Positions 1,557-30,740 of a stretch of 64,000 nucleotides of DNA are shown one piece after another (positions within the stretch are counted from its first letter, which is position 1; every line of letters starts with the position of its first letter). A program made the position numbers and the translations under genes. Source of the stretch: Allomuricauda ruestringensis DSM 13258. GTDB lineage: Bacteria > Bacteroidota > Bacteroidia > Flavobacteriales > Flavobacteriaceae. The stretch is taken from positions 2,906,501-2,970,500 of the forward strand of contig NC_015945.1 of the NCBI RefSeq assembly GCF_000224085.1, in the 5' to 3' direction. The notes beneath the pieces are model-generated. The model was not told the origin of the DNA. It worked only from the letters and a program-made list of their open reading frames with translations, and did not search any database.

Positions 1557-1558
1557 AA

Positions 1559-5010: not shown

Positions 5011-5020
5011 AACATTTATC

Positions 5021-6840: not shown

Positions 6841-6856
6841 AGGACAATTTTGTCCT
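6841..6856. promoter_or_regulatory. Inverted-repeat operator before ccoN
   Basis: AGGACAATTTTGTCCT has 6-bp arms around a 4-bp spacer. On the coding strand it is embedded in the context AATAAAGGACA, identical to that before ric and the Rrf2 gene. It lies only 15 bp before the ccoN ATG, so bound protein would probably sit at or after the transcription start and repress. The regulator is inferred to be the Rrf2 protein at 23.1-23.6 kb. Confidence 0.65.
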
Positions 6857-6883
6857 TTATTTATTTAATTTTTTTTTAACCTT

Positions 6884-7195
6884 TCAAACCGATAGTTGCT
6901 TTAAACAACCTTTCCGGAGGTTGGTATTAAGTGTCTGGATATAGACGCCCACCAAGTTGGTCATGGCTCCCCTTTGTACAAAAATGCCCCGAAATAAATC
7001 GTTCAACTCACATGTGGCCCCCAATTGGAATTTTTTGGTACTCCCACTGACAGGACAATTCACGCCACATTCTTGGGCAGTGGGATTCCTTTGGTCCATT
7101 GGCGGTCCTAATGATCCAAACAATATCTCTATATAAACATTGGACCACTGGGGCGCTTCGACCATAAGTTCTTGTATGATTGATCCGTCGAACAT
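6884..7195 (-). CDS. Small hypothetical cysteine-containing protein
   Basis: This encodes 103 residues with the segments QECGVNCPVSGSTKKFQLG and ATCELNDLFRGIF. There are four cysteines and no signal peptide or membrane helix. No family was recognised. The case for a real gene is its promoter. A TATCTTTG -7 box (7216-7223 on the minus strand) and an operator (7239-7254) lie just upstream, with the same 16-bp spacing found before the Rrf2 gene. The gene stands alone, upstream of ccoN on the same strand, and could be co-transcribed with it. It may be a small NO-induced protein, but this is inference. Confidence 0.6.
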   Translation of the reverse strand: MFDGSIIQELMVEAPQWSNVYIEILFGSLGPPMDQRNPTAQECGVNCPVSGSTKKFQLGATCELNDLFRGIFVQRGAMTNLVGVYIQTLNTNLRKGCLKQLSV

Positions 7196-7215
7196 AGTTG
7201 GAATAGGATTTAGGA

Positions 7216-7254
7216 CAAAGATAACACTAAAAATAAATCGGACAAAAATGTCTT
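7216..7254 (-). promoter_or_regulatory. Promoter with Rrf2-type operator for the 6.9-7.2 kb gene
   Basis: Read on the minus strand, AAGACATTTTTGTCCG (7254-7239) is followed after 16 bp by TATCTTTG (7223-7216), a Bacteroidota -7 box, and the ATG is about 20 bp further. The Rrf2 gene promoter at 23585-23623 has the same layout. The operator would overlap the -33 region. Confidence 0.65.
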
Positions 7255-7337
7255 AAATAATTATCCATGAAAAAATTTAATGTATCATTTCTTAGTTGAT
7301 CAGGATGGTAGGATAAGATTATATACGGTTGAAAAAT

Positions 7338-7369
7338 AAAGGACCATACTAAAAAAGGCATGGTCCTTT
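7338..7369 (-). terminator. Intrinsic terminator after the DoxX-like gene
   Basis: The inverted repeat AAAGGACCAT / ATGGTCCTTT (10 bp) has a 12-nt loop. On the minus strand it is followed by ATTTTTC. It lies about 90 bp past the stop of the DoxX-like gene. Confidence 0.7.
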
Positions 7370-7457
7370 GAAGGCATCATGAGTAAAAAATTGTGCCTGT
7401 ATCGTTGTTCAATAATTTCACAATGTGTTCACTTGGTCAACATTTTTCACAGGAAGT

Positions 7458-7820
7458 CTACTCGGATAATTTTACCAAGGACAGGGCCGCAATGGCCATG
7501 ACCAAATCCCTTACAGCGACATCCAGGTGATTTCCGGTCACGATCAGGACCAATGCGATCAAAACCAGCCATAGAGCGACAATGTAACCACCAATTTGAG
7601 GGCGTACCAAAACCACTATTCCAGCGGCAATCTCAATCACCCCTATAGTGCCCATAAAAATTCCAATATCCACGGGCAATAGTTCAACAAGGCCTGTTGA
7701 CATATATTGGGACCAATCGGTCAATACATTCGTAAACTTATCCAATCCAGCTACGATTGGAACAATACCAAAGGTGTATTTCAATAAATTTTGCACTTTT
7801 TGTACATTAGCAAGTATCAT
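7458..7820 (-). CDS. DoxX-like small membrane protein
   Basis: This encodes 120 residues with four predicted membrane helices: YTFGIVPIVAGLDKF, IFMGTIGVIEIAAGIVVLV, GGYIVALWLVLIALVLIVTG and a C-terminal DLVMAIAALSLVKL. The length and helix pattern fit DoxX/DoxD-like quinone-associated membrane proteins, although the sequence match is judged by eye. It is a single gene with its own terminator. Upstream, near 7868, is a GGTTACAAAAATG half-site shared with other promoters in this area. Function is not established. Confidence 0.75.
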   Translation of the reverse strand: MILANVQKVQNLLKYTFGIVPIVAGLDKFTNVLTDWSQYMSTGLVELLPVDIGIFMGTIGVIEIAAGIVVLVRPQIGGYIVALWLVLIALVLIVTGNHLDVAVRDLVMAIAALSLVKLSE

Positions 7821-7920
7821 AATTTTAGTATTTATTTGTACCCTTTAGATGCAGATATTGAGAAGGGGTTACAAAAATGATGTAGTGAAGCCGTTCCTGT
7901 CCTAGGTTTTGGAAGTGGAC

Positions 7921-8601
7921 CTAACTAAATTCCATGCCCTGTATCCTCTTAAGGACCAGTTCCACAAGGCAATCACATTTATGGTTGCCGAACTCAAAAA
8001 TGTTCTTGGTGTTTGTGGTTGTGAAAATATAGTCTTTGATCATGTTCCTTGCTCTGAACAGTCGCACTTTTACATTGCTGACGGTCAAATCAAGCGTTTT
8101 TGAAATTTCAGAAATTTCCATTCCCTCAACTTCCCTCAACATATAGATAATCTTGTACTTTTGGGGAAGGGTATCTACCGCCTTTTCTATAAAGGCAACC
8201 GACTCTTTGTAAATGGTGCTGTTTTCTGGGTTCATGACTGACGTATCTGCTATTTGAAGAATGCCCGACTCGTGTTCTAGGGCTGTTGTTCTATAATTTT
8301 TGAACTTTCGTTTGCGTTGTAGTGCTTCATTGATCCCTATTCGTACCAACCAAGTTGAAAATGTGGATTCATTTTTAAATTGATACAATTTTTGGTAGGC
8401 CTTGACATAGGCGTCCTGCATGATGTCCTCAACATCAGAATCCTGATTGATGTAACTTCGGACAGTTCGGTATAACAGTTCATTATAACGCCTCATCAAT
8501 ATTTCAAATAATTCGGTCTCCCCATTCAATACTTTTTCAACGACCAAATGGTCCGGTAGTACTTTTTGGGTCTGAATGGGATTGTTTTTATTTGATACCA
8601 C
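7921..8601 (-). CDS. ECF-type RNA polymerase sigma factor
   Basis: This 226-residue sigma-70 family protein has a region 2 segment, VEDIMQDAYVKAYQKLYQF, with STFSTWLVRIGINEALQRKR. Region 4, TLPQKYKIIYMLREVEGM, is followed by the HTH EISEISKTLDLTVSNVKVRLFRAR. A C-terminal extension of about 35 residues contains HKCDCLVE, a possible metal- or redox-sensing cysteine pair. No anti-sigma gene is adjacent. The divergent promoter region contains a perfect inverted repeat (8654-8671). It probably directs transcription of neighbouring stress or respiration genes; the signal is unknown. Confidence 0.9.
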   Translation of the reverse strand: MVSNKNNPIQTQKVLPDHLVVEKVLNGETELFEILMRRYNELLYRTVRSYINQDSDVEDIMQDAYVKAYQKLYQFKNESTFSTWLVRIGINEALQRKRKFKNYRTTALEHESGILQIADTSVMNPENSTIYKESVAFIEKAVDTLPQKYKIIYMLREVEGMEISEISKTLDLTVSNVKVRLFRARNMIKDYIFTTTNTKNIFEFGNHKCDCLVELVLKRIQGMEFS

Positions 8602-8653
8602 GTTTTCCTTTTTTTAGTTGAGCCACATTCATTGGATGCAGTACGCTATAATT

Positions 8654-8671
8654 GGTTACAAAAATGTAACC
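8654..8671. promoter_or_regulatory. Perfect 7-bp inverted repeat GGTTACA-N4-TGTAACC
   Basis: Two perfect 7-bp arms around AAAA lie between the divergent sigma factor gene and the flavin reductase gene. Partial copies (GGTTACAAAAA) occur at about 7868, 10145 (reverse) and 19049. The dyad size fits a Crp/Fnr-family site; the binding protein is unknown. Confidence 0.5.
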
Positions 8672-8811
8672 ACTTTATAAAATTGTCATCTAATGAACGG
8701 CAATGGATTTTTCCATTACAATGGTCCAATGCCCAAATTTGATGATCGAATGATTGCGACTGTACCTCGATGATTCAATCAAGGTACGAAATTGACTTTA
8801 ACAAAAATACC

Positions 8812-9477
8812 ATGAATTATTCTGTAAAAATTCTTAAAAAGGTGTGGTTGACCCATAATGTGGTCCAATTTGTTTTGGAGAGACCAAAAGAATTTCAATG
8901 TGCCCCTGGAGATGCTGTGGATGTCATCTTGGATACCGGAGGGACAAACCAACGGTCGGCACCCTTTACCTTGACCAACATGCCTGATTCGACTGTTCTG
9001 GAATTGATCATTAAGGTCTATCCGAACCTAAAGGGGTTTACCCACACCATTTCCCAAAGGAAAGTAGGAGATACACTGAGCATAACCAGTGCCTGGAAAT
9101 CATTTGAGTATCTAGGCAAAGGGACATTCATTGCGGCAGGATCAGGCATTACTCCCTTTATTCCCATGATCAAGATATCCGAAGAACAAGGTACCCTATT
9201 GGGCCATAAATTGATATATGCCAATAGAAAATTGAAGGATGTTATTCTTAAAAAGGAACTCGAAGAAAAACTAGGATCTCATTTTTACAATATCCTGAGC
9301 GAAGAACAAGTCGAGGGATATGGCTATGGAAGGATTGATCGAAAATATTTGGATTCCAGAATTGTTGAACCCGATCAGTATTTCTATGTGTGTGGACCGG
9401 ATGACTTCTCCACCAGCATAAAGGGCATTTTAATGAATCTTGGGGTCAAGGCGCATAATATACAAATAGGATATTAA
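8812..9477 (+). CDS. FAD/NAD-binding ferredoxin reductase-like protein
   Basis: I prefer the start at MNYSVKILKKVWLTHN (ATG 8812) because the paralogue at 18.3-19.0 kb begins at the same place; this gives 221 residues. An FAD-binding barrel with the loop RSAPFTLTN is followed by the NAD-binding domain with AAGSGITPFIPM and the C-terminal YFYVCGPDDF. It resembles the reductase half of flavohaemoglobins and flavodoxin reductases and would move electrons from NAD(P)H to a partner protein. The stop overlaps the start of folE (TAATGA). The partner is not known; truncated haemoglobins encoded in this region are candidates. Confidence 0.87.
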   Translation: MNYSVKILKKVWLTHNVVQFVLERPKEFQCAPGDAVDVILDTGGTNQRSAPFTLTNMPDSTVLELIIKVYPNLKGFTHTISQRKVGDTLSITSAWKSFEYLGKGTFIAAGSGITPFIPMIKISEEQGTLLGHKLIYANRKLKDVILKKELEEKLGSHFYNILSEEQVEGYGYGRIDRKYLDSRIVEPDQYFYVCGPDDFSTSIKGILMNLGVKAHNIQIGY

Positions 9478-10136
9478 TGAAGAAGGATATGAAACCTGCT
9501 GACCAAAGCAGGACAAGCACTGTGACCCAGGTCAATGGAACGTTGTGCAATGGAGAGAACGGTCAACGTCTAAAGAAGAATGATAAAATTGCCGAAATCG
9601 CCCATCATTTTGGAAGGATAATGGAAGTGCTCGGGCTGGACCTGGATGACCCTAGCTTAAAGGATACTCCGGCACGGGTCGCAAAAATGTTTGTAAATGA
9701 AGCTTTTGTCGGTTTGGATGAGACCCAATTTCCCGAAGTGTCCTTTTTTGACAATACCTACAACTTTGACGAAATGGTGGTTGTCAACGACATTAGTCTG
9801 TATTCCTATTGCGAGCACCACTTTGTGCCCTTTTTCGGAAAGGTGAATGTTGCATATTTTCCGAATAAAAAGGTCATTGGGCTTTCCAAGATTAATAGGA
9901 TCGTGGACTTTATCGGTAGAAAGCCACAGGTCCAGGAAAAATTGACCAGGGAAATCGCAGAGACCTTATCCGTGCTTTTGGACACGGAACATGTGGCCGT
10001 ATATGTGGAGGCCAACCATCTTTGCGTGGCCTCGAGGGGCATCAAGGACCATAACAGCCATACAAAGACGGGGAGTTATCTGGGGAAGTTCAAAAATGAA
10101 TGGACCAAAAAAGAGTTCGTGTCGACTTTCCAATAA
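9477..10136 (+). CDS. folE: GTP cyclohydrolase I
   Basis: This encodes 219 residues. The family motifs are clear: LKDTPARVAKMFVNEAF, YSYCEHHFVPFFGKVNVAY (zinc ligand Cys and catalytic His pair), GLSKINRIVDFIGRKPQVQE and HLCVASRGI with the second zinc Cys. The enzyme makes dihydroneopterin triphosphate from GTP for folate or pterin synthesis. The gene overlaps the reductase gene by 1 bp, so the two are co-translated, an unusual pairing. A 5-formyl-THF cyclo-ligase gene lies 10 kb away. Assignment is firm. Confidence 0.96.
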   Translation: MKKDMKPADQSRTSTVTQVNGTLCNGENGQRLKKNDKIAEIAHHFGRIMEVLGLDLDDPSLKDTPARVAKMFVNEAFVGLDETQFPEVSFFDNTYNFDEMVVVNDISLYSYCEHHFVPFFGKVNVAYFPNKKVIGLSKINRIVDFIGRKPQVQEKLTREIAETLSVLLDTEHVAVYVEANHLCVASRGIKDHNSHTKTGSYLGKFKNEWTKKEFVSTFQ

Positions 10137-10200
10137 ACTTTTGTAACCGCATTCGCCCGTTTGCATCCAATGGGTGTATTAACAAATAAAAACAATAAAA

Positions 10201-10719
10201 ATGAGAAAAGCTTTTAGCCTAGTGGTCATTGCGATGATGGGTGTTCTTACGTTTGGGCAGGAAACCCCGTTGATGGACACAGAGGTGGCGTCAGTGGCCG
10301 TTGTGGCGAACCAAATTGATATCGATTATGCACAGATAGCATTGGAAAAGTCCAATAACAAGGAAATATTGGATTTTGCCAACATGATGGTAAAAGATCA
10401 CAATGCAGTCATTGCACAAGCTGTGGCCTTGGTCAAAAAACTGGGTGTGGACCCAAAAGATAATGTTGTTAGCCAATCCTTGTTGAAGGATGCCGAGAAA
10501 ACCAAAAGAAAGCTCAAAAGAACCTCCAAGAAAAAATTTGACGCAGTTTATATCGACAATGAGGTGGCTTACCATAAAGCGGTCATAGGAGCGGTGAAAA
10601 ACCTTTTGATCCCTGAGACCGAGAATGGTGAATTGAAAGAATTGCTAAGTGCGGTCGTTCCAGCTTTGGAGGCACATCTGGGACATGCTGAGATGGTCCA
10701 AAAGAACATTAAAGGGTAG
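10201..10719 (+). CDS. DUF4142 exported protein
   Basis: This 172-residue protein has a signal peptide (MRKAFSLVVIAMMGVLTFG) and the helical DUF4142 domain: residues 35-170, with DYAQIALEKSNNKEILDFA, MMVKDHNAVIAQ and a C-terminal HLGHAEMVQ. The domain is a ferritin-like helical bundle with conserved His residues; its role is unknown, possibly envelope stress. It stops 4 bp before the cupredoxin gene, so the two form an operon. A GGTTACAAAA half-site (reverse, about 10145) lies in the promoter region. Confidence 0.88.
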   Translation: MRKAFSLVVIAMMGVLTFGQETPLMDTEVASVAVVANQIDIDYAQIALEKSNNKEILDFANMMVKDHNAVIAQAVALVKKLGVDPKDNVVSQSLLKDAEKTKRKLKRTSKKKFDAVYIDNEVAYHKAVIGAVKNLLIPETENGELKELLSAVVPALEAHLGHAEMVQKNIKG

Positions 10720-10723
10720 TATA

Positions 10724-11074
10724 ATGAGATCCTTGATTCCAAAAATAACGGTGTCCTCGATAATCCTGTTGACATTTTTTATGGAGGTATGGGCCTATAA
10801 CAAGCTCAAAGTCATGGAGGAACCCCCAAAGAAGCATACAGTAAAAATATTCCGGATGAAGTTTATTCCCGATCATTTGACCGTGAAGGAAGGAGATACC
10901 GTGGAATGGGTGAACAAAGATTTTTACCTCCATGATGTGACCGATGAAAAGGACCAGAAATGGACTTCAAAACCTTTTGGCCAAAATGAGGTCTGGAGTA
11001 AAGTGGTGACAGATGATGAACAATATTTCTGTAACCTTCACAAGGTTATGAAGGGAACCATTACGGTTGAATAA
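10724..11074 (+). CDS. Exported plastocyanin-like cupredoxin
   Basis: Starting at MRSLIPKITVSSIILL (ATG 10724, 4 bp after the previous stop) gives 116 residues with a signal anchor. The type 1 copper ligands are visible: His70 in FYLHDV, and Cys103, His106 and Met109 in YFCNLHKVM. It is a small periplasmic blue copper protein suited to shuttle electrons, for example to the nitrite reductase, the cbb3 oxidase or the di-haem peroxidase encoded next. The specific partner is inferred from context. Confidence 0.88.
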   Translation: MRSLIPKITVSSIILLTFFMEVWAYNKLKVMEEPPKKHTVKIFRMKFIPDHLTVKEGDTVEWVNKDFYLHDVTDEKDQKWTSKPFGQNEVWSKVVTDDEQYFCNLHKVMKGTITVE

Positions 11075-11100
11075 AGCTTTTTGAAAAAGAAAATTATGAC

Positions 11101-11135
11101 GAACCGGTTTGGGACGTTGTTGTCCAAATCGGTTC
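11101..11135 (+). terminator. Stem-loop after the cupredoxin gene
   Basis: GAACCGGTTTGG pairs with CCAAATCGGTTC (one mismatch) about 27 bp past the cupredoxin stop. There is no clean T-run, so it may be a weak terminator or an mRNA-stabilising hairpin. Confidence 0.5.
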
Positions 11136-11168
11136 AATAACTGATTTTAAAATCTAAATTAAACTACC

Positions 11169-12521
11169 ATGAACAAATATTTCTATTCGAAATTATCAGT
11201 ACTTACCGTGGTGCTCGTTTATTTGTCCAGTTGTACAAAGACAGAGACCATTACCGAGACAATTACCGAAACGGTCACGGATACCATTATCGAGACCACT
11301 ATAGACACTTTGCACTTGGACCCCGTACTGGTGGCCCAGGGAAGAGAAGTGTTCAGACATGATACCTTTGGTGACGAGGCATTTTGGAGCGGTGTTCTCC
11401 ATTTGGACAAGGCCATCCTAGGAGCGGATAATGGAGGGTATGGCGATGGGGTGAGCCCAGCAACAGCACTGGCCGTTGGGCTTAAGGTGGATGCCGAGGC
11501 CTTGCCCGCTGAGGTGGTCTCCCTGATACAATCAGGGGATGTTGACTTGAATGACCCGGCCACCACAGTGGAACTGCTCCGGTTGAATTCGGTTGTCGGG
11601 ATCAAAGGTAATTTTGATGAGACAGGTGACCTGTCCTCTATCGGTATTACCTGTGCCCTATGCCATTCCACGGTGGATGATTCCTTTTCTGAGGGTATCG
11701 GTAAACGATTGGATGGTTATCCCAATAGGGATTTGAATGTTGGCGTCATTGTTTCATTGACGGACAATGCCCAATTTTTGGCCGATTTGCTCCATGTGGA
11801 TGTCCCTACGGTCAATGCGGTATTGAATGGTTGGGGCCCGGGGAAATTTAATGCCGGTCTGATGGTGGATGGTATCGCCACACGACCTGATGGATCCATT
11901 GCCGCAAACCTACTTCCCGCAGCCTATGGATTGCAAGGCGTTAATTTGGCAACCTATACCGGTTGGGGGGATATGGTCTATTGGAATGCCTTTGTCGCCA
12001 ATCTGGAAATGCACGGTCAAGGGAACTTTACAGATGCCAGGCTGAACGATGCAGGCATGTTCCCCATAGCCGTGGAAAATAATTTTGCCAATGTGGTCAA
12101 CTCCCCGGATTTGATTACCGGAAAACTTCCAGCACTGCAGGCCTACCAATTGTCGTTGGATGCACCGACACCTCCTGAAGGGAGTTATGATGTGGCGGCC
12201 GCTGAGCGAGGCAAAGTCCTTTTCAATGGTCCTGCACAATGTGCCACCTGCCACATCGCACCCATTTTCACGGATGCCGGGTTTAACCTGCATACGGCAG
12301 AGGAAATTGGAATCGATGATTTTGAAGCGAGTAGATCGCCCACAGGAATGTACAGGACCACGCCCTTGCGAGGCTTGTTTGCCCGCATGAAAGGAGGTTT
12401 TTATCATGATGGGAGATTTGCCACCTTAGCCGAGGTCATCGATCATTACGATGGACATTTTGACCTTCAACTATCACAGGGTGATAAGGACGATTTACAA
12501 GAATATCTAAAATCGATATAA
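11169..12521 (+). CDS. Di-haem cytochrome c peroxidase-like lipoprotein
   Basis: This encodes 450 residues. A lipoprotein signal ends LVYLSSC. It is followed by a Thr/Glu-rich spacer of TET-type repeats (about residues 24-47), which presumably lifts the protein off the membrane. Two haem c sites are present: CALCH (C162, C165, H166) and CATCH (C358, C361, H362). The second half, with the TPLRGL and GGFYHDGRF motifs, matches the CcpA/MauG family. These enzymes reduce H2O2 or carry out related oxidations with electrons from cupredoxins or cytochromes, and the cupredoxin gene just upstream is a natural partner. A terminator follows at 12591-12636. Confidence 0.87.
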   Translation: MNKYFYSKLSVLTVVLVYLSSCTKTETITETITETVTDTIIETTIDTLHLDPVLVAQGREVFRHDTFGDEAFWSGVLHLDKAILGADNGGYGDGVSPATALAVGLKVDAEALPAEVVSLIQSGDVDLNDPATTVELLRLNSVVGIKGNFDETGDLSSIGITCALCHSTVDDSFSEGIGKRLDGYPNRDLNVGVIVSLTDNAQFLADLLHVDVPTVNAVLNGWGPGKFNAGLMVDGIATRPDGSIAANLLPAAYGLQGVNLATYTGWGDMVYWNAFVANLEMHGQGNFTDARLNDAGMFPIAVENNFANVVNSPDLITGKLPALQAYQLSLDAPTPPEGSYDVAAAERGKVLFNGPAQCATCHIAPIFTDAGFNLHTAEEIGIDDFEASRSPTGMYRTTPLRGLFARMKGGFYHDGRFATLAEVIDHYDGHFDLQLSQGDKDDLQEYLKSI

Positions 12522-12535
12522 AAATTTGGTTGGTT

Positions 12536-12582
12536 ATTGATTGATTGATGGATTGGATGAATGATTGATTGATTGATGATGG
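12536..12582 (+). repeat. GATT-type simple tandem repeat
   Basis: An imperfect TTGATTGATTGATGG tetranucleotide-like tract sits between the peroxidase stop and its terminator. It carries no coding signal. Confidence 0.75.
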
Positions 12583-12590
12583 TTGTTCCT

Positions 12591-12636
12591 AACCAGGGCC
12601 TCATTGGGTATTACAACCAATGGGACCTTGGTTTTT
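12591..12636 (+). terminator. Intrinsic terminator after the di-haem peroxidase gene
   Basis: AACCAGGG-CTCATTGG pairs with CCAATGGGACCTTGGTT around a 9-nt loop and is followed by TTTTT. It would also separate the upstream operon from the CPBP protease gene. Confidence 0.7.
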
Positions 12637-12784
12637 GATTGACTGGAAATTGGTACTAACGAAAAATTAATTTTCGCTTTAATTCTAAAAAAATTATGAT
12701 TGGATTTATACCAGAATTGGTCTTTGATGCCCTTTTCGTATCCACAAAGGTTAAACTGGACATTTTGTTGAAAAAGCATGACAA

Positions 12785-13573
12785 ATGTACTTGGGATTGA
12801 ATCACACAGGTAAAATAATGATCGTCACATTTGGGGCGTTCTTACTCTATTGGGTGCTGGATGATTTGTACTTCAATAGGCTCCGATCCTATTTGGACTT
12901 GTTCATTGGGCAGCGGGGGATAAGCCACATACTAGCATATACACTTTCTGCCTTGCCACTTCTTTTTGGTGTATGGCTCGTTCACAAGAAATGGAACTTT
13001 GCACGATACTTGGGATTGAACGGAAACATAGGTAAAGCCCTGTTGCTTTCGGGTGTGTTTACAGCCCCAATGTTCATTGGCTATTATTTGGCATTTGATG
13101 TAAATACGGAAATCACTGTGAACCAACTATTGGTTTCAGTGATTGCGGCAGGATTTTTTGAAGAGGTTTTTTTTAGGGGATTTTTATTTGGTCAATTGTA
13201 CAGGTTCACCAGAATGGGTTTTGTTCCTGCAATTTTTATTGGAGCCCTATGGTTTGGTGCCATACACCTGTACCAAAGCCATGATTTGAATTCGGCACTA
13301 GGGATTTTTGGGATTACTTTTTTAGGTGCCGTCTTGTTTGGATGGTTGTATACCGAGTGGGAGAATAACTTATGGATGGCCATATTTTCCCACTCCCTTA
13401 TGAACTTGAGCTGGTTGCTTTTTTCGGTGGATGAAAATGCCATGGGAGGTTGGTATGCCAACCTCTTTCGATTGATTTCCATTGTTTTGATGATTCTACT
13501 GACCATTTATTCCAAAAGTCATAAGAATAGATCGATGGCCATTAACCGCCGGACAATTTGGATGAAAAAATAA
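12785..13573 (+). CDS. CPBP family intramembrane protease
   Basis: This 262-residue polytopic membrane protein has the CPBP (Abi/Rce1-like) catalytic motifs: EEVFFRGFLFGQLYR at about 130-145, WFGAIHLYQ with a conserved His, and a third His in IFSHSLMN. Members are membrane glutamate-type endopeptidases, sometimes involved in bacteriocin immunity or protein maturation; the substrate here is unknown. It is a single gene ahead of the cytochrome c synthase gene, with about 95 bp between them. Confidence 0.88.
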   Translation: MYLGLNHTGKIMIVTFGAFLLYWVLDDLYFNRLRSYLDLFIGQRGISHILAYTLSALPLLFGVWLVHKKWNFARYLGLNGNIGKALLLSGVFTAPMFIGYYLAFDVNTEITVNQLLVSVIAAGFFEEVFFRGFLFGQLYRFTRMGFVPAIFIGALWFGAIHLYQSHDLNSALGIFGITFLGAVLFGWLYTEWENNLWMAIFSHSLMNLSWLLFSVDENAMGGWYANLFRLISIVLMILLTIYSKSHKNRSMAINRRTIWMKK

Positions 13574-13667
13574 TGATATATCGAAAATGGGATAATGCCT
13601 TCACTACTAGGGATTGTTTGAAAAGTGATGATGATTTTATGGATGGTCTTAATCCTAATTACGTATT

Positions 13668-16823: not shown

Positions 16824-18277
16824 GGTAAGTTGTTCGTTTCGATCAATGCCCTTTCCAATAAATGCATAAGAAGGTCTATCTCTTTTTTGTGTGTCCTAAA
16901 GGACAGTAGGGCGGCACGAAGGACAAACCTATCATGGATCATAGTGGAGGAGAGGAAGATGCGTCCGTCCGATACAAGGAACCTTAGAATGGCCCTATTG
17001 TGTTCATCATTGTACAGATGATCATCCGGCCTGGCTTCATACCTAAATGCAATAACGGTAAGTTCCGGTTCACAGAGCACCTTAAAGTTTAGCTGTACCA
17101 ATTTCCGATAGAGATAATCGGTCAATACCAGTTTCTCTTCCAAGTAATCGGAAAATACCTTTGGTCCATAAAGTTTTAACGGCAACCACATTCGCGGCCC
17201 CCTAAAATGTTTGCTCAATTCCGGAGAAAGATCGGCGGGGGAGAAATGGTCATTTTGATAGCTATCCTGCATGTAATGTGCCCCTTGTTTAAAGGCCCTT
17301 ACCAAACACTTTAGCTCCTTTACCAGAACAATACCGGATCCGTATGGTAGAAATAGGCCCTTATGGGGATCGAGGATTACGGAATCCGCTTGGTGCAAAC
17401 CCTTGAGTTTGGATTTTCCAGTGGTTGTCAGTGTGAAAAAGCCCCCATAGGCAGCATCCACATGCAACCATATTCCATGTCTTTTGCAAATGGCGCCCAA
17501 TATTTCAATGGGGTCAATAGCACCTATATCCGTGGAACCTGCATTGGCGACGACCAAAAATGGGCTCAGCCCCATTTTGACATCCCTTTCGATCTGTTCC
17601 TCCAGATATTGGGTCGATAGCCTAAATTGTGCATCCAAGGGAATTTTTTGCAGGACACATTCTTCCAATCCAAGCAAATGTATTGCCTTATAAATGCTAT
17701 GGTGTGTCTGCGTGGAGCAATAGATTACACTTGTTCGTACATTCCGGGAGGAGATATCATGGTGTTTTTTGGCACAGGAAAGTGCTGTAAGATTAGCCAA
17801 ACTACCCCCAGAGGTCAAATTCCCACCAAACCCATCCTTGTATCCTATCAATTTTCCGGCCCACTGAATTAGGGCATTTTCCATTTTTACTGCACCAGGG
17901 GACGCATAGAATACCCCAGCGTACCTGTTGGTCAATGCCGCCAGGTAATCCCCCAGTGCAGAACTGAACAGTCCACCACCTGGAATATAGCCCAAATGGC
18001 CACCCGATACAGGGTTTAACCCAGGATCCACTACCGCTTGATCAAAAAAGCTTAGTAGCTCGCCAAGACTCGAGGTATCTTCCCTAATCCTAAATTCCGG
18101 TTCAAGATTTTTAAGAGTTTCGGAATTTGTGTTAAAGGCTTTGATGGTTCCCAAGTTATCCAGAAAACCGTGGCCGAATTCCAATATCAATTTTTCCATT
18201 TTCCTCCGCTGTTCCCCATCCTCCTCCAAAAGGACATTAGGTTTGTTCAGGAAATCTTGGTTTGTTTCTAAAGCCAT
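16820..18277 (-). CDS. Group II PLP-dependent decarboxylase
   Basis: This encodes 485 residues. The PLP fold is shown by LTSGGSLANLTAL (about 155-167), the HVDAAYGG motif (272-279) and DPHKGLFLPYG with the Schiff-base Lys306. This is the aromatic-L-amino-acid/glutamate/diaminobutyrate decarboxylase group; the substrate cannot be read from sequence. It lies 6 bp downstream of the flavin reductase gene and is probably co-transcribed with it and the globin. A distant paralogue lies at 25.7-27.1 kb. Confidence 0.9.
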   Translation of the reverse strand: MALETNQDFLNKPNVLLEEDGEQRRKMEKLILEFGHGFLDNLGTIKAFNTNSETLKNLEPEFRIREDTSSLGELLSFFDQAVVDPGLNPVSGGHLGYIPGGGLFSSALGDYLAALTNRYAGVFYASPGAVKMENALIQWAGKLIGYKDGFGGNLTSGGSLANLTALSCAKKHHDISSRNVRTSVIYCSTQTHHSIYKAIHLLGLEECVLQKIPLDAQFRLSTQYLEEQIERDVKMGLSPFLVVANAGSTDIGAIDPIEILGAICKRHGIWLHVDAAYGGFFTLTTTGKSKLKGLHQADSVILDPHKGLFLPYGSGIVLVKELKCLVRAFKQGAHYMQDSYQNDHFSPADLSPELSKHFRGPRMWLPLKLYGPKVFSDYLEEKLVLTDYLYRKLVQLNFKVLCEPELTVIAFRYEARPDDHLYNDEHNRAILRFLVSDGRIFLSSTMIHDRFVLRAALLSFRTHKKEIDLLMHLLERALIETNNLP

Positions 18278-18283
18278 GGTTCG

Positions 18284-19000
18284 TCAGGAATTTAAGATTT
18301 TGCTCTGTCCAAACTTATAACCTGTTTGGATCCGTTTTTGGTCAACACCTATTTTCATCAAGTGGGTCATCATATCAAATTCGAAGGACTTGGGCCCACA
18401 GATATAAAAATATTGATCTTTTTTTTGAACAATCGATTTTAGGAACCCAAAATCAATACGTCCTGGAAGTTTTTCGCTTGCCGTTGGACTGCTCAACCTC
18501 ATGATGAAATTGCTGCCCAACATTTTCCTCAATCTTTTTTCAAACAATATATCCTCTTTGCTTTTAGTGGCATAGACCAATAAATGGCTTTCCGTGAACT
18601 CGGGACCAAACCTATGGATATAGTCCAGAATGGGCATAAAGGGAACAATGCCCGTGCCGGCGGCAATAAAATGTCCATAACCCCTATATTCAAAAGTATC
18701 CCAGGGCCGACTAAGCTGGATTACCGCGCCTGGCTTTAATGCGGACAAACGGTAGGTCAGACTGTCCTTGTTCGGCCGTATCTTAATGATGAACTCCAGA
18801 CATGGGTCATCTTCGGCACTTATAATCGTAAAGGGAGCCACCTCCAATTCACAACCGGGCTGGTCGATACTCAGTTCCACGGCCTGGCCTGGAATAAAAT
18901 TGAATCCAAAGGGTCTTTGGACCGAAAAGCGGACGACATTGTGGTTGACTTTTTCTTTTTTTACAAGTCTTGTGGTATAGGGAAAGATGAAACCGTTCAT
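18284..19000 (-). CDS. FAD/NAD-binding oxidoreductase, paralogue of the 8.8 kb reductase
   Basis: This encodes 238 residues: an FAD barrel with EVAPFTIIS, an NAD-binding AAGTGIVPFMPILD motif and the C-terminal YFYICGPKSF. The layout is identical to the protein at 8812-9477. It is in the same orientation as the truncated haemoglobin gene (19.4-19.8 kb), with a small gene between them. A reductase of this size together with a single-domain globin would reconstitute a two-component NO dioxygenase like flavohaemoglobin; that is inference. Its own promoter may lie in the 80-bp gap, which contains a GGTTACAAAAAA half-site. Confidence 0.86.
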   Translation of the reverse strand: MNGFIFPYTTRLVKKEKVNHNVVRFSVQRPFGFNFIPGQAVELSIDQPGCELEVAPFTIISAEDDPCLEFIIKIRPNKDSLTYRLSALKPGAVIQLSRPWDTFEYRGYGHFIAAGTGIVPFMPILDYIHRFGPEFTESHLLVYATKSKEDILFEKRLRKMLGSNFIMRLSSPTASEKLPGRIDFGFLKSIVQKKDQYFYICGPKSFEFDMMTHLMKIGVDQKRIQTGYKFGQSKILNS

Positions 19001-19080
19001 AGTACAAATGGTATGTTGGTTACCAATTGGATTAAAATGTGCGGTCTGGGTTACAAAAAATGAAGATAAGCCGATACGGA

Positions 19081-19386
19081 TTATACCGATTTTGAAAAAA
19101 TCACTTCATCCGTTCCCATATGGAACATATCCTTTTTTAGAGTGGAGAGGAGATAGGTGATGATATCCTTTTTTGAAAAGGTCGATTTATATTCAAAACG
19201 GACAGCGCCACTGTTGGCAAAGCATAGATTATGTTCATCGTTGCCATCCGACATATAAGGGATTTCATAATATTGGGCCAAACGTTGTACAAATTCCATT
19301 TTTACATCCAAGGACAGGAGTTCGTCCCTTGAGTACCTAGATCGGTTCGTGGTATTCCCGAAAATTTCTGAAAGTTTGACCTTCAT
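19081..19386 (-). CDS. Small hypothetical protein between globin and reductase genes
   Basis: This encodes 101 residues with no signal peptide or membrane segment; it contains MKVKLSEIFGNTTN and FSKKDIITYLLSTLKKD. The family was not recognised. It begins 9 bp after the globin stop and is clearly part of the same transcript. The single Cys and the mixed charge pattern give no cofactor hint. A role as a partner or regulator of the globin-reductase pair is possible from position only. Confidence 0.65.
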   Translation of the reverse strand: MKVKLSEIFGNTTNRSRYSRDELLSLDVKMEFVQRLAQYYEIPYMSDGNDEHNLCFANSGAVRFEYKSTFSKKDIITYLLSTLKKDMFHMGTDEVIFSKSV

Positions 19387-19395
19387 AAGTCCTTG

Positions 19396-19728
19396 TTATT
19401 CAATATGCTTAAAATATTCAATCTTCAATTGGAACATCTCCGCCATCTTTTCCGCCCGAAACTTGGCCTCAGCGGCTTTTTCACCGGTAAAGTTCTCATC
19501 CCCCGTTTCCATAAAGAGCTGCTTCCATCGGTCAAAATGTGTTCCTTGGACCGGTAGTTTGATATGGGGGGCTAGGGGACTACCATAATAGGTGTGTTCT
19601 CCCAATAGGACCGTTTGCCAAAACCGGTACATTTTTTCCAAATGGGCTGGCCAATTGTCTTGGATTACGCCATTGAAAATATCCGACAATATATCATCAT
19701 TGCGAACCTTGCCATAGAAAATATCCAC
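19396..19728 (-). CDS. Group III truncated haemoglobin, N-terminus disrupted
   Basis: The globin-like reading includes VDIFYGKVRNDDILSDIF, WPAHLEKMYRFWQTVLL and APHIKLPVQGTHFDRW with the proximal His, and is close to the globin at 2.9-3.3 kb. Recognisable globin sequence (EIVTLEEVRQL) continues upstream of the only usable start, the GTG at 19728, to an in-frame TAA at 19762-19764. A GTG at 19776 would give MIQK-stop-EIVTLEEVR. So the gene is either hit by a nonsense mutation, uses a non-standard start, or re-initiates at 19728 without helix A residues. An Rrf2-type operator lies upstream at 19882-19897. Family is firm; functionality is doubtful. Confidence 0.75.
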   Translation of the reverse strand: MDIFYGKVRNDDILSDIFNGVIQDNWPAHLEKMYRFWQTVLLGEHTYYGSPLAPHIKLPVQGTHFDRWKQLFMETGDENFTGEKAAEAKFRAEKMAEMFQLKIEYFKHIE

Positions 19729-19881
19729 CAGTTGCCGTACTTCCTCCAGAGTTACGATTTCTTATTTTTGTATCACTTTTTATAATAAAATAACTATACA
19801 CCAAATTCCATGAATCCATTTTGGATTTTTATAGGAACAGAACCTAAAATTAGCATAAAGATGCGGAGATTTGAAAATTAA

Positions 19882-19897
19882 CGGATATTTTTGTCCG
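19882..19897. promoter_or_regulatory. Inverted-repeat operator between globin and MTHFS genes
   Basis: CGGATATTTTTGTCCG has 6-bp arms allowing a G:T type change, the same pattern as the sites before ccoN, ric and the Rrf2 gene. It lies between divergent genes and most likely serves the globin-reductase operon, although MTHFS starts only 14 bp away. Confidence 0.6.
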
Positions 19898-19910
19898 AAA
19901 TATTCATTGT

Positions 19911-20477
19911 ATGAGTATCCCTGTCAAAACAAAAAAAAAGAAAATTAGAAAACAGATGTTGCGTCAACGGAGCCTTTTGTCCCCTGCCGCCAAGGCCATT
20001 TATGATCAAAATGTCTGTGAAGCCCTATGGCATCTGATGGAACAGAAACGATGCCAAACGGTTCATACCTATCTACCAATGGGTTCCGAAATCAATATTT
20101 TTCCATTTATAAAGCAGTGTTTGGCCCATCAAAAAACAGTTATTTGCCCACAGACCTTGCCCAAAAGGAGGTTTATAAATTTGATCCTTACATCCTTGCA
20201 GGATTTGGAACCTGGGGTTTTCGGAACCAAGCATCCCGCTGGCAAAAGTATATTTGAAGGGACCTATGACATGATTGTGGTTCCTGGGTTGGCGTGTGAT
20301 GGTGATAGGTGTCGACTGGGTTATGGGGGAGGATATTATGATACTTTTGTTGCGGATTGTCCGAAGGCCCACAAAGTAGGGGTTTTTTACCCTTTCCAGC
20401 AAATCGATAAGATACCTCTTGAACCCCATGATATGCAATTGAACGATTTGTTGGTTTGCCAAGCTTGGATGGACTAG
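19911..20477 (+). CDS. 5-formyltetrahydrofolate cyclo-ligase
   Basis: This 188-residue protein has N-terminal RKQMLRQRSLLSP, substrate-binding YLPMGSEIN and the signature LGYGGGYYDTF preceded by VVPGLACD. It converts 5-formyl-THF to 5,10-methenyl-THF using ATP and returns a stable folate form to the one-carbon pool. It is a single gene divergent from the globin cluster. Assignment is firm. Confidence 0.94.
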   Translation: MSIPVKTKKKKIRKQMLRQRSLLSPAAKAIYDQNVCEALWHLMEQKRCQTVHTYLPMGSEINIFPFIKQCLAHQKTVICPQTLPKRRFINLILTSLQDLEPGVFGTKHPAGKSIFEGTYDMIVVPGLACDGDRCRLGYGGGYYDTFVADCPKAHKVGVFYPFQQIDKIPLEPHDMQLNDLLVCQAWMD

Positions 20478-20595
20478 ACTTGATATTGTGCCATAAGATT
20501 TCAAAGACCTCCTTGGCCCTGGAGCAATGGATATCGTCTATTTATTTATGGAAGAGCCATCCTGATGTGTTGTGGTCCTTATTGAAATAACCTTC

Positions 20596-21287
20596 TCAGT
20601 CCTCCCTTCTTACTAGCGAATGAGAAACAATCATTTGGGCAACATCCAGTATATTTGCCTGTTCATAGAGAGTAGGATTTACCGCTGATATCGACAAAAG
20701 TCTACGGACCTTCCCATGGAGAACCTTCAACTGCCTAGCGGCCCCCTTGAGATCTTCTGTACTCCGCACAATTCCCACCTTGTTCCGCATCAATGCTTGG
20801 AGGTTGTGGACATGAAGCTTGACCAATTCGAGATCCACGGGCACGGAACGTTTTTTTTCACAATATGAAATTCTCCTAGGTGGTGGGACAAGTGGATGGG
20901 AACTCAAATGGGTGTAGGTATTATGGGTATATACAAGGGCTTCCAGTAAGAAGTTTGAGGTCAATTTGTTCGCCCCATGAAGTCCAGTCTTTTCACATTC
21001 CCTGCAGGCAAAAAAGTTTTTAATGAAGGTCCTTCCATACCCATCGGCATTAATGCCCCCACAGAAATAAGAGCAGTTGGGACCACAGGTATCAAATCTC
21101 TGTCAATTGGGATGTTATGGCCCAGACATTTCCTGTAAATTGTGGGGAAATGTAATTTGAAGGCATCGGTATTCAAATGTGTGCAGTCGAAAAAGGAATG
21201 GAGTTGCCCTGATGTCATCAGTTCAAATGCAATGCTTTTGAAGACCACATCCCTTAGTGCGAGTTCCCCTCGCTGGTCATGGTTCAC
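20596..21287 (-). pseudogene. nadB: Remnant of L-aspartate oxidase (nadB), C-terminal half with frameshift
   Basis: The minus strand encodes NadB-like sequence in two frames. The first part reads GELALRDVVFKSIAFELM then FPTIYRKC and LIPVVPTA. After a one-base deletion near 21070-21072 (in what should be AHYxCGGI) the frame continues GGINADGYGRTFIKNFFAC, ECEKTGLHGANKLTSNFLLE, then NKVGIVRSTEDLKGA at the C-terminal helical domain. The N-terminal FAD-binding region (about 280 residues) is absent. NadB oxidises aspartate to iminoaspartate in NAD synthesis. An intact copy is expected elsewhere. The 273 bp upstream hold no recognisable gene. Confidence 0.85.
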
Positions 21288-21560
21288 TACCTGAAAATGA
21301 TGCTAAAACATATCTGGCGCAGTTCATTTAAGTTCATTGTATAAAATTAGAACAAGGGTTTAAGGAATAATTAGAATAGGGCAAAAGTTATAAAAAGACT
21401 TATTAATAATAAAATAACCTTTTTATCATTTATATGTATAATCAATATAATCCTTTAATTAGGTGGTCCAACTTAATATCCTAGTGGAAGGCTGGGGATT
21501 TTTAAAAGTACACCTGTAAGAGGTGTGGTAAGAAGGTGCTATCCCGTCCTTAGGGAAGAG

Positions 21561-21908
21561 CTAAGCCAAATACATAAGAATGACTCCCATACTGAACAGC
21601 ACGCTCAAAATCAATATATTGAATGTGGTCAAAGGTTTCAATTGTGCCAATACGGCCCCATTGAACGCCATGCAAAAGATGGTCACAAAGAATAGTAAGG
21701 TCATTTGTACCGCGGTATCTAATGCTCCCATCAACAGTACCATTACTGCTGCAGAGCCCAAACAGCTTTGCCCTATGATTGCTATGGTGGCATAGCCCAT
21801 CTCACCTTTCTTGTATTCCAAGAACAGACGCTTGTGAACGTTGGTAAGGACATTACCTTTGCTTTTAGTTCCAGAATGGGTCATAGGTATTGTCTTTGAA
21901 TTTTTCAT
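21561..21908 (-). CDS. Small membrane protein, three TM segments
   Basis: This encodes 115 residues: a basic N-terminal part, then helices YATIAIIGQSCLGSAAVMVLLMG, MTLLFFVTIFCMAFNGAVLA and TTFNILILSVLFSMGVILMYLA. The family was not recognised. It overlaps the end of the hemerythrin gene by 44 bp in the first-Met frame. A later Met (MTHSGTKSKG or MGYATIAI) could be the true start. It is part of the hemerythrin/ric operon and may be an NO-stress membrane protein. Confidence 0.65.
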   Translation of the reverse strand: MKNSKTIPMTHSGTKSKGNVLTNVHKRLFLEYKKGEMGYATIAIIGQSCLGSAAVMVLLMGALDTAVQMTLLFFVTIFCMAFNGAVLAQLKPLTTFNILILSVLFSMGVILMYLA

Positions 21909-22326
21909 GGTTGTGATATTTTTGTATTAGGTCCAACTGGGCGTCACTGGCAATTTTTTGAATTTCATTAAAGAGCTGGCGTTCCTCATATCGTATATGT
22001 TGTTCCAGTTCCTCTTCAATCTGTACCAACCTCCTGATAGGGTCAACGCTGGAGGTAAATAACCGGACCAATCTGCGATGCTCCCTTAACGCTTTTTTAA
22101 TTTTTGGATTATCCATACCCAAAATGGGAAAGATGTGATTTTCCTCCAATTCAAAATGCGGGATCAAATGGGTCTTAAAGAACCAATCCACATAGGTCTT
22201 TATGCGTTCCGGTGCTACCTTTTTTGAAAGTCCCGTTCGAATCTTCCAACATAGGAGCAGGCCGTGATGGTGTTCACGGCTTACTCCCTGTAGGGCCTTA
22301 TGTCGTTTGATGGGTGTTCCGGCCAT
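21865..22326 (-). CDS. Hemerythrin-domain protein
   Basis: This encodes 153 residues with the HHE hemerythrin pattern: SREHHHGLLLCWKIR, HFELEENHIFPIL, EHRRLVRLF and HIRYEERQLFNEI provide the His/Glu/Asp ligands of a di-iron site. It ends with the DPFWN tail seen in this subgroup. Such proteins bind O2 or NO, or donate iron for Fe-S repair. It starts 7 bp after the ric stop, so it belongs to the ric operon and probably shares its NO-responsive promoter. Confidence 0.9.
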   Translation of the reverse strand: MAGTPIKRHKALQGVSREHHHGLLLCWKIRTGLSKKVAPERIKTYVDWFFKTHLIPHFELEENHIFPILGMDNPKIKKALREHRRLVRLFTSSVDPIRRLVQIEEELEQHIRYEERQLFNEIQKIASDAQLDLIQKYHNHEKFKDNTYDPFWN

Positions 22327-22333
22327 AAGGGCT

Positions 22334-23063
22334 TTAGTTGCTTAGTACTTTTTTTTCCAATGTTTCTGCTTTTGGGAACAGGATATTGTTCTCCAAATGG
22401 ATATGTCGATGAAGATCTTCCTCAAATTCCTGAAGAAGGGAAAAGGCAACCCTATAGGTATTACAGGCATCGGAAGGTGGGGTGTAATCACCGCTCAGGG
22501 CAGCTATTTTTCGGAACCGTTCCCCTTCATTGTCATGCTCCTCCATCATCATTTGAATAGGGTTATGGACTGTACCAAATTGCGGTGGTCCCAAGGTCTT
22601 TCCATCTGCCGTTCCGGCCACCATTCTACGAATCCAGGGGAACAGGACCTGTTCTTCCTTCTTCATGTGCATGGCAAGTTCGCCGGCAGAACCGGTGAAA
22701 TGTTCAAAAATACCAAACAGTTCAGGGTGTTTGTTGCCATGTACGTGACATAGCTTGTTAAGATATTGCTTTAAGATCGGGATACGTTCCTCAACGTACC
22801 GATGGTGCTTTTTTTCGATATAGTCGATCAAAAGATCTAAAGGCCATGTATTGAAATCGGGCTGATCCGATTGACTGTCCCGTTGGACTTCGTCCAGTTC
22901 ATGCAATAGAACTTCCTTGTCCAGACCATTTTTGTCGGCAACTTCCTGTAAGGTCCGATTGCCTTTGCAGCAAAAATCAATTTTATGATTTTTAAAGACC
23001 TGGGCGGGTACGGTAATCCTCGGCCACCATCTGGCCCACTGTTTTTTCCATGGTATCGTTCAT
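22334..23063 (-). pseudogene. ric: RIC/ScdA (YtfE) iron-sulfur cluster repair di-iron protein, frameshifted
   Basis: Reading from the ATG at 23063, MNDTMEKTVGQMVAEDYRT runs to a CCC tract at 23008-23006 and then hits a stop. In the next frame the expected sequence resumes: AQVFKNHKIDFCCKGNRTL, then HELDEVQRDS. The cysteine pair of the ScdA N-terminal domain and the four hemerythrin-like helices (HHRYVEERIP, HMKKEEQVLFPWI, EEHDNEGERF, HRHIHLENNILFP) are all there. One extra C explains the break. RIC proteins repair Fe-S clusters after NO damage. The rest of the gene is not decayed, so the frameshift is recent, programmed, or a sequencing error. Confidence 0.85.
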
Positions 23064-23094
23064 GATATTAGAATTAAATGTTATTTCAATAAAT

Positions 23095-23110
23095 AGGATA
23101 AAAATGTCCT
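23095..23110. promoter_or_regulatory. Inverted-repeat operator before ric
   Basis: AGGATAAAAATGTCCT lies 32 bp upstream of the ric ATG, with the same AATAAAGGACA flank (minus strand) as the ccoN and Rrf2-gene sites. It sits directly after the end of the Rrf2 gene. Confidence 0.65.
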
Positions 23111-23128
23111 TTATTAGTTTAAATTTTT

Positions 23129-23566
23129 TTAACGCTTCAAATAGGTCAGTCCAACTTCCAGTCCCATTGCCAGTTCGTACAAACTGGTATTCTCCAACAT
23201 ATTTTTTAAATCGGTCCTGATATCTACAAACTTGTCATGGAGAGGACAGGGCTGGTTTGCGTTGCACTCCTTGAGACCAAGGCCACAGCCGACATAGGTA
23301 CCATCCCCATCGATGGCATGGACGATACTGCTCAATTTTACGGTATCCATCTCGGTTCGGTCCAACTCAAAGCCACCTGTGGGCCCCTTGACGGATTGGA
23401 TGACCTTATTCCTCGAGAGCTGTTGCAAGATTTTGGCCGTGAAAGCGATCGGAGAATCGATTTCTTCAGCAATTTCATTGACACTGACGCGTCTTCCATC
23501 CAAGGATTGCAGTGCAATATAGGCCACAGCGCGAATACCATACTCACAGGCTTTTGAAAACATCAT
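23129..23566 (-). CDS. Rrf2 family transcriptional regulator (NsrR/IscR-like)
   Basis: This encodes 145 residues. An N-terminal winged helix (MFSKACEYGIRAVAYIAL, VNEIAEEIDSPIAFTAKILQQL, GPTGGFEL) is followed by the three-cysteine Fe-S ligand cluster YVGCGLGLKECNANQPCPLH (about 92-112). In NsrR and IscR such cysteines hold a cluster that reacts with NO or reports cluster status. Placement beside ric, plus matching operators at its own promoter and before ccoN, the globin and ric, argues for an NO-sensing repressor. The exact sensory role is inferred. Confidence 0.9.
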   Translation of the reverse strand: MMFSKACEYGIRAVAYIALQSLDGRRVSVNEIAEEIDSPIAFTAKILQQLSRNKVIQSVKGPTGGFELDRTEMDTVKLSSIVHAIDGDGTYVGCGLGLKECNANQPCPLHDKFVDIRTDLKNMLENTSLYELAMGLEVGLTYLKR

Positions 23567-23584
23567 TGCTAAATTTATTCATTA

Positions 23585-23623
23585 CAAAGATAACATTAAT
23601 TTTAATTCGGATAAAAATGTCCT
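23585..23623 (-). promoter_or_regulatory. Autoregulated promoter of the Rrf2 gene
   Basis: On the minus strand AGGACATTTTTATCCG (23623-23608) is followed after 16 bp by the TATCTTTG -7 box (23592-23585), then the ATG about 19 bp later. The identical layout occurs at 7216-7254. The operator covers the -33 region, which fits autorepression. Confidence 0.65.
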
Positions 23624-23814: not shown

Positions 23815-23963
23815 CTGGATGGGACGGACAATGAGAACCACTAAAACGGAAAGTTTGAGCCATTTTTTATTCTACTGTAAATGAGTGAGTCAATGACTTA
23901 TTTGTAATTTAACTATGCTCACTTTTTTCCAGCGAAGGTGGTATACCATGCCCGTTTTTTGCA
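23815..23963. repeat. IS-derived repeat, copy 1
   Basis: About 150 bp match 55201-55351 closely, from TGGATGGGACGGACAATGAG through CTATGCTCACTTTTTTCC to GTGGTATACC-ATGCCCGTTTTTTGCA. The last 26 bp also occur at 30771-30796. No transposase frame is attached here. The rest of this gap (23624-23814) shows no gene. Confidence 0.75.
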
Positions 23964-24078
23964 AACAACCTTGTGTAACATTAAAGCAAAAAAAAGCGAC
24001 ATAAGATTAAACTAATGCCGCTTTATATGTTTTCACAACGGAATAATCCTTATTGTGAATATGGACTTTGTTAATTAT

Positions 24079-30726: not shown

Positions 30727-30740
30727 AGATAAAGTTATCC
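30727..30740. promoter_or_regulatory. Possible Rrf2-type operator before nirK (weak)
   Basis: AGATAAAGTTATCC fits GGAYA-N4-TRTCC with one mismatch on the minus strand (GGATAACTTTATCT) and lies 70 bp before the nirK ATG. Alone it would not be called; it is noted because of the nearby regulon. Confidence 0.35.

Follow-up and report, generated by a model that had tools for sequence, protein, structure and literature searches.

The stretch of the Allomuricauda ruestringensis DSM 13258 genome analysed here, called the window below (64,000 nucleotides, C1:2906501-2970500 of a 3.84 Mb single-contig genome), carries a short dyad, GGAYA-N4-TRTCC, ahead of several genes, among them a gene for a regulator of the Rrf2 family, and raises the question of which protein reads this dyad and in answer to which signal. 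We consider it probable, from sequence comparison, that the dyad is the operator of an autoregulated repressor of the iron-sulphur (Fe-S) Rrf2 type, released by nitric oxide (NO) and acting over a ric/hemerythrin unit, a globin operon and an operon for a cbb3-like oxidase, a globin and a TDO-like protein. In the mechanism that we propose, the dyad, about 26 bp long with the core GGAYA-W4-TRTCC, covers the TTTG at -33 of the promoter, and an Rrf2 dimer bound to it would block access of RNA polymerase. Reaction of NO with the Fe-S cluster of Rrf2 would then free the dyad and so induce Rrf2 itself, the ric/hemerythrin unit, the globin operon and the cbb3-like/globin/TDO-like operon.

The dyad beside the Rrf2 gene

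The regulator gene and its promoter are laid out as follows.

23609..23622, minus strand: candidate operator before Rrf2, over the -33 element; exact dyad, in the same place in relatives
23585..23592, minus strand: TATCTTTG, the -7 box of Rrf2, 19 nt past the operator TTTA
23129..23566, minus strand: Rrf2 regulator gene, 145 amino acids; PF02082 with E 3.6e-26, 92.3 bits (cut-off 30)

The six dyads named in the original prediction are all present in the window sequence, in the intergenic gaps stated there: those at 6842-6855 (GGACAATTTTGTCC), 19883-19896 (GGATATTTTTGTCC), 23096-23109 and 23609-23622 (both GGATAAAAATGTCC) match without mismatch, and those at 7240-7253 and 30727-30740 with one; the flank AATAAAGGACA, described as common to three sites, is real as well. 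When one mismatch is allowed, the window holds 16 dyads, against 6.5 (standard deviation 2.6) in shuffles, none of which, out of 100, reached 16.

Two sets of relatives were compared. The first consisted of 46 loci from one search with both paralogues of the genome, taken with as much as 10 kb of flank at either end; most came from Muricauda, Allomuricauda and Flagellimonas, and Maribacter, Saprospiraceae, Cryomorpha, Sphingobacteriaceae, Ferruginibacter and others contributed single loci. The second set consisted of the 29 other genomes with loci given, of 69 others with an orthologue, at 59-75% identity. In both sets a dyad was counted if it lay within 120 bp of Rrf2 and departed from the N4 form by at most one mismatch. 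The comparison of orthologous upstream regions, offered with the prediction as a check, came out in its favour, as a dyad precedes Rrf2 in 40 of 46 loci of the first set and 21 of 29 of the second, and another lies immediately downstream of the gene, as a rule ahead of ric, in 34 and 22 respectively (background, 339 in 13644 windows, 2.5%); several loci that lack the downstream dyad have globin or a ccoN-like gene, not ric, behind Rrf2. The upstream dyad starts 52-59 bp before the Rrf2 start codon in 59 of 61 cases, its letters vary among loci while the dyad itself persists, and the full operator derived from 43 sites of other genera reads approximately wTAAWTM-GGATA-AATT-TRTCC-KAAWTAA. The exact form with an A/T spacer occurs 58 times in the 46 loci (877,538 bases) and once in the reversed control, and 54 of the 58 are intergenic by a simple open reading frame (ORF) call. 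Comparison of these loci establishes that the dyad is conserved, where it sits on the Rrf2 promoter, that it accompanies the Rrf2 clade and which genes form its set of predicted targets, and makes a strong case for assigning the dyad to this clade.

The A. ruestringensis genome encodes two regulators of this clade, 83% identical and each flanked by the dyad, plus four other Rrf2 genes. The single Rrf2 controller first envisaged has to be replaced by two near-identical candidate regulators in this genome. Across 199 genomes of the family, orthologues were called at 48% identity or more (above about 130 bits) as against 43% or less (below about 125 bits), a cut set by eye. Genomes with an orthologue carry 3.13 exact sites each (n=70) and those without 1.76 (n=129; p 1.1e-7, own genome excluded, and optimistic like the other p-values here, as the genomes are related), while the reversed control gives 3.06 with an orthologue and 2.57 without one (p 0.09). 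The dyad stands ahead of genes of NO defence and respiration, overlaps the promoter of the regulator gene and is retained beside that gene across many genera; taken together, this points to a self-regulated NO response in these bacteria.

Dyad counts in the genome

The whole-genome scan of GGAYA-N4-TRTCC returned 30 sites against 32 in the reversed control, and the N4 motif was rejected as a genome-wide enriched signal; the motif as first written survives in its sites but not in its spacer, which has to be A/T. In the A/T-spacer form there are nine exact places in the genome (control, five): four in the window, two around the second Rrf2 gene, at C1:3103492 and C1:3104007, one on each side of it, and three within long ORFs. 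Relaxing the first G to A gives 14 places, of which eight are at promoters of the proposed regulon (five in the window and three in the second cluster), five within ORFs and one intergenic elsewhere. The N4 count at control level is what would be expected if the sites were AT-rich palindromes that arose by chance and have no function, but this explanation is most improbable beside the narrow position of the dyad across genera, the 58 sites against one in relative loci and the fixed promoter register described below, results that argue against chance for the Rrf2, ric, globin and ccoN-like sites.

Candidate operator and promoter

According to excerpts of PMC2483708 and PMC9723704, promoters of Bacteroidota carry TTTG at -33 and TAnnTTTG at -7. 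An exact TAnnTTTG lies 17-21 nt past the TTTR of the dyad in 55 of the 61 Rrf2 promoters that have one, and at 19 or 20 nt in 44 (background, 95 of 4878 windows). With this spacing the operator overlies the -33 element, an overlap that fits repression through exclusion of RNA polymerase. The same layout is present at both Rrf2 genes of the genome and at an orphan ORF of the window. Behind its ccoN-like, ric and globin dyads no exact TAnnTTTG was found, which leaves the mode of action less clear there.

The regulator protein and its signal

The regulator belongs to the Rrf2 superfamily by TIGR00738 (94.1 bits, cut-off 73.3) and by PF02082, and falls outside every curated subgroup: it scores 38.5 bits with the NsrR equivalog model (cut-off 182), 62.2 of 207.55 and 44.1 of 275 bits with the two IscR equivalog models, and below all cut-offs of RirA, CymR and the SUF regulator. 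Nor does it head an isc or suf operon, as an IscR would; its neighbours are ric, globin, nos or ccoN-like genes. In an alignment of the protein with orthologues from 31 of the 46 loci (48-94% identity; 15 loci omitted; n=32), E8, C94, C101, C107, H110 and F42-T43-A44-K45 are invariant, the last presumably within the helix that reads DNA. The cysteine spacing is therefore C-X6-C-X5-C with an invariant Glu at position 8, and differs from the three-cysteine arrangement with Asp8 of ScNsrR, for which excerpts of PMC9338935 give Cys93, Cys99, Cys105 and Asp8. As for the control of NO-defence genes such as ric, which also characterises NsrR, operator position and neighbourhood are what speak for it here. 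The best reading is a protein that acts like an Fe-S Rrf2 repressor, NsrR-like yet not classed as NsrR.

A structure model of the protein (mean pLDDT 86.4) was ranked by Foldseek E-value closest to RsrR (6hsd, 24-25% identity), followed by CymR, NsrR with DNA (7b0c) and IscR. RsrR is a redox sensor, and its place as the closest solved structure, together with the higher score of the IscR than of the NsrR model and a cbb3-type oxidase that would fit low O2 too, would suit an Rrf2 protein that binds the dyad but answers to O2, to iron or Fe-S status or to redox, as with IscR or RsrR. We regard this as rather unlikely, since ric, hemerythrin, the globins and the adjoining nirK and nos form an NO-handling set, and ric is repressed by NsrR in several bacteria according to excerpts of PMC9268430. 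For the NO-released repressor, the original claim of an Rrf2-controlled NO regulon that includes the cbb3/globin/TDO operon holds in so far as the dyad tracks the clade and heads the Rrf2, ric, globin and ccoN-like units; binding, repression, the Fe-S cluster and, because of the target set, NO as the signal are what we infer.

The ric and globin units

Downstream of Rrf2, the window carries the following units.

23096..23109, minus strand: candidate operator before ric; exact dyad
22334..23063, minus strand: ric (DUF542 + hemerythrin), frame disrupted near its start; PF01814 on the 22334-22906 ORF
21865-22326, minus strand: hemerythrin-domain protein (PF01814), in the unit 21561..22326 after ric
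21561-21908, minus strand: small hydrophobic protein after ric
19883..19896, minus strand: candidate operator between the globin operon (minus) and the 5-formyltetrahydrofolate (5-FTHF) cyclo-ligase gene ygfA (plus); exact dyad
18284..19728, minus strand: globin operon (PF01152, PF00175, PF00970), with globin at 19396-19728, a protein of no assigned function at 19081-19386 and an FAD/NAD oxidoreductase at 18284-19000

The N-terminal part of the window ric lies in another frame, and an intact second copy is found in the second cluster (L037:8733-9461); the hemerythrin and small hydrophobic neighbours downstream of ric are kept in many relatives. Between ygfA and globin a dyad recurs in all five relative loci that have this gap, and it also stands before a globin gene without ygfA in L066, so that globin is the likelier target of the dyad in the gap. 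Of 20 other genomes with the globin (E up to 1e-30), 18 also have the regulator, a count that omits three genomes at E 1e-30 to 1e-20, two with the regulator and one without; at 1e-20 the figure is 20 of 23. Three related globin genes occur in the genome, one in each NO-type unit (window 2908-3297 and 19396-19728, and L037:7910-8326).

The cbb3-like/globin/TDO-like operon

The remaining exact dyad of the window heads an oxidase operon.

6842..6855, minus strand: candidate operator before the ccoN-like gene; exact dyad, its end 15 bp before the ATG
5021..6826, minus strand: ccoN-like (cbb3-type) subunit; PF00115
1263..5052, minus strand: rest of the cbb3-like operon (PF02433, PF00034, PF01152, PF03301, PF07883), made up of
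3997-5052, minus strand: ccoO/P-like
3706-3993 and 3297-3719, minus strand: small proteins
2908-3297, minus strand: globin
2474-2917, minus strand: small hydrophobic protein
1559-2470, minus strand: TDO-like
1263-1562, minus strand: cupin

Relatives keep the order ccoN-like, ccoO/P-like, two small proteins, globin, small hydrophobic protein and TDO-like, and in some of their genomes cupin and ric lie near the operon. Among 198 other genomes, eight have the ccoN-like gene, and every one of the eight has the regulator (p 1.6e-4). At each of the nine ccoN-like loci outside the A. ruestringensis genome a dyad heads the unit, exact in seven, and six of these loci have Rrf2 directly in front.

The ccoN-like protein scores 260.6 bits with the curated ccoN model, below the cut-off of 583, and the oxygen-reductase His motifs and Tyr are conserved in it and in nine relatives. 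It was therefore taken to work like subunit I of a cbb3 oxidase, as a divergent clade. An NO-reductase identity was also considered: table A4 of PMC8756737, a source used in excerpt, gives the active-site residue as E in cNOR and qNOR, N in sNOR, Q in eNOR and D in gNOR. It was rejected, for the Tyr is kept (YTMIGTHH or YTLIGTHH) in this protein and in 9/9 orthologues, aligned with the Tyr of CcoN; the active-site pattern used initially matched one of the nine orthologues and was then loosened. The protein further has an N-terminal extension of about 150 residues ahead of the COX1 domain, and a Q in place of the E of the aligned CcoN, shared by 9/9 relatives.

Nineteen other genomes hold a member of the TDO-like paralogue group (52-71% identity), and 12 of the 19 have the regulator (p 0.008); the A. 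ruestringensis genome also carries a more distant TDO. In the TDO-like protein, His and Arg of the N-terminal TDO part align with solved TDOs.

A fourth COX1-family protein is encoded by a 796-amino-acid frame at C1:3204172-3206484 (L091, L035), beside a different Rrf2 gene. It was rejected as a member of the regulon, as L091 has no site upstream of it and just one mismatched site further down. By its size it is perhaps a quinol NO reductase, and the Rrf2 protein beside it may be a further sensor.

nirK, nos and the second cluster

A weaker site stands before nirK.

30727..30740, minus strand: weaker dyad before nirK; one mismatch, spacer not pure A/T
29218..30657, minus strand: nirK, for a copper nitrite reductase whose C-terminal part is a cytochrome c (PF07731, PF07732, PF00034; named from its domains, as in the original prediction)

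This site is partly upheld by comparison, in that 10 of 29 relatives have a relaxed dyad within 180 bp of nirK (background, 2 of 1130 windows) and 19 have none; at up to one mismatch and within 330 bp the figure is 8 of 29, a count without background. Of 37 other genomes with nirK, 30 have the regulator.

In the second cluster, the second Rrf2 gene is followed by the intact ric, a small hydrophobic protein and a globin, and a nos cluster (nosZ, nosL, nosD) lies ahead of it on the same strand. The dyad GGATAAAAATGTCT stands in the nos promoter gap, in which a third, different Rrf2 gene, divergent from nos and of another clade, also starts. A relaxed dyad (up to one mismatch) is present in all 28 nos promoters examined among the loci of the first set, exactly as AGAYATTTTTATCC in 20, and 21 of the 28 also have an exact TGATN4ATCA, a CRP/FNR-like box whose centre lies 19 nt past that of the dyad; the background for the box is 15 of 3991. 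If TAnnTTTG spans -12 to -5, the two centres fall at about -60 (dyad) and about -41 (TGATN4ATCA), a layout present at L037:18905-19020 and in the nos promoters of the first set, and the latter position we take to be the place of a class II CRP/FNR activator. Dyad and box together suggest double control of nos. Within 200 bp of nirK the box occurs in 9 of 29 loci, at scattered positions, and nirK may be controlled in a similar way. The nos operon is to be added to the targets first listed, although its dyad may belong to the divergently encoded Rrf2 protein and not to the clade studied here.

The nos promoters also bear on a further explanation, in which the dyad itself is a box of the CRP/FNR family (HcpR, DNR or NnrR type) and the Rrf2 gene merely one of its targets. 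Its 5-N4-5 geometry is that of the HcpR2 consensus GTAACnnnnGTTAC in excerpts of PMC1274295, the second Rrf2 gene has a CRP-like gene in its vicinity (L037:5015-5590), and a CRP/FNR-like box accompanies the dyad at nos. However, the dyad flanks the Rrf2 gene across genera; it lies over -33, the place of a repressor, and at nos the activator place near -41 is taken by the different box. Within the sequence flanking Rrf2, only 4 of the 46 loci have a relative of the CRP-like gene, a search that did not extend to CRP-family genes in the rest of these genomes, and this gene was discarded as the probable owner of the dyad. We therefore hold a CRP/FNR-type box to be quite unlikely, less likely than an Rrf2 protein that senses another signal.

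Discussion

Several results weigh against an autoregulated, NO-released Rrf2 repressor as the owner of the dyad. The N4 motif lacks enrichment genome-wide, and even in genomes that bear the regulator the exact count does not exceed that of the reversed control, so that the contrast between the groups is what stands out. Before Rrf2 the dyad is missing in 14 of 75 loci, one of which (L053) has only 51 bp of upstream sequence, and the one congener sampled lacks an orthologue of the regulator, which makes the regulon accessory. Seven of the 19 genomes with a TDO-like gene have no regulator. To these are added the low NsrR score, the missing TAnnTTTG at three of the window dyads and the doubtful ownership of the nos dyad.

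The proposed system resembles the NsrR regulons of Proteobacteria, Bacillus and Streptomyces, as described in excerpts of PMC1274295, PMC9338935 and PMC9268430, in its three-Cys Rrf2 repressor, its ric target and its dyad operator. It differs from them in having another operator, over -33, cbb3-like and TDO-like targets, and the C-X6-C-X5-C spacing with Glu8. With RsrR of Streptomyces venezuelae it shares the Rrf2 fold, as the best Foldseek match, and Glu8 as a possible ligand, but identity is low and RsrR is a redox regulator. The regulators HcpR, DNR and NnrR likewise have 5-N4-5 dyads at genes of nitrogen-oxide metabolism (excerpts of PMC1274295), but they differ in regulator family and half-site, and the dyad here tracks an Rrf2 gene. 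Clade II nos scaffolds, several of them from Flavobacteriia, are enriched in Rrf2 regulators according to PMC6264515, the excerpts of which give no operator, regulon or mechanism for these nos-adjacent genes. In the open-access literature, as far as its excerpts go, no operator of an NO regulator was found for flavobacteria; subscription papers could hold one.

Beyond the operator, we tentatively suggest, as a possibility that is more doubtful than not, that these genes form a new NO effector module of Bacteroidota, in which a divergent cbb3-like oxidase, globins, a TDO-family protein and a cupin stand under a -33-operator Rrf2 repressor, with a CRP/FNR activator at nos and nirK; the oxidase would be NO-tolerant or NO-consuming, and the TDO-like protein would handle NO or heme rather than break down tryptophan. 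Flavobacteria are among the clade II N2O reducers, and nosZ, and perhaps nirK, would be tied to an Rrf2 switch. A defined operator, a regulator and a conserved list of targets make NO sensing in Bacteroidota directly testable, and name the cbb3-like oxidase and the TDO-like protein as unstudied candidate parts of NO tolerance.

Other features of the window

An orphan ORF lies beside the cbb3-like operon.

7240..7253, minus strand: operator-like dyad before the orphan ORF, with TTTG inside; one mismatch
7216-7223, minus strand: TATCTTTG box of the orphan ORF promoter, 19 nt beyond the TTTG of the dyad
6884..7195, minus strand: orphan ORF, 103 amino acids

Its product matches no Pfam or NCBIfam family; no homologue was found in the 198 other genomes of the family, and a large protein collection returned only the orphan itself. 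Finally, a repeat of about 27 bp, GTGGTATACCATGCCCGTTTTTTGCAA, occurs in two gaps of the window, at 23938-23964 and 30771-30797.

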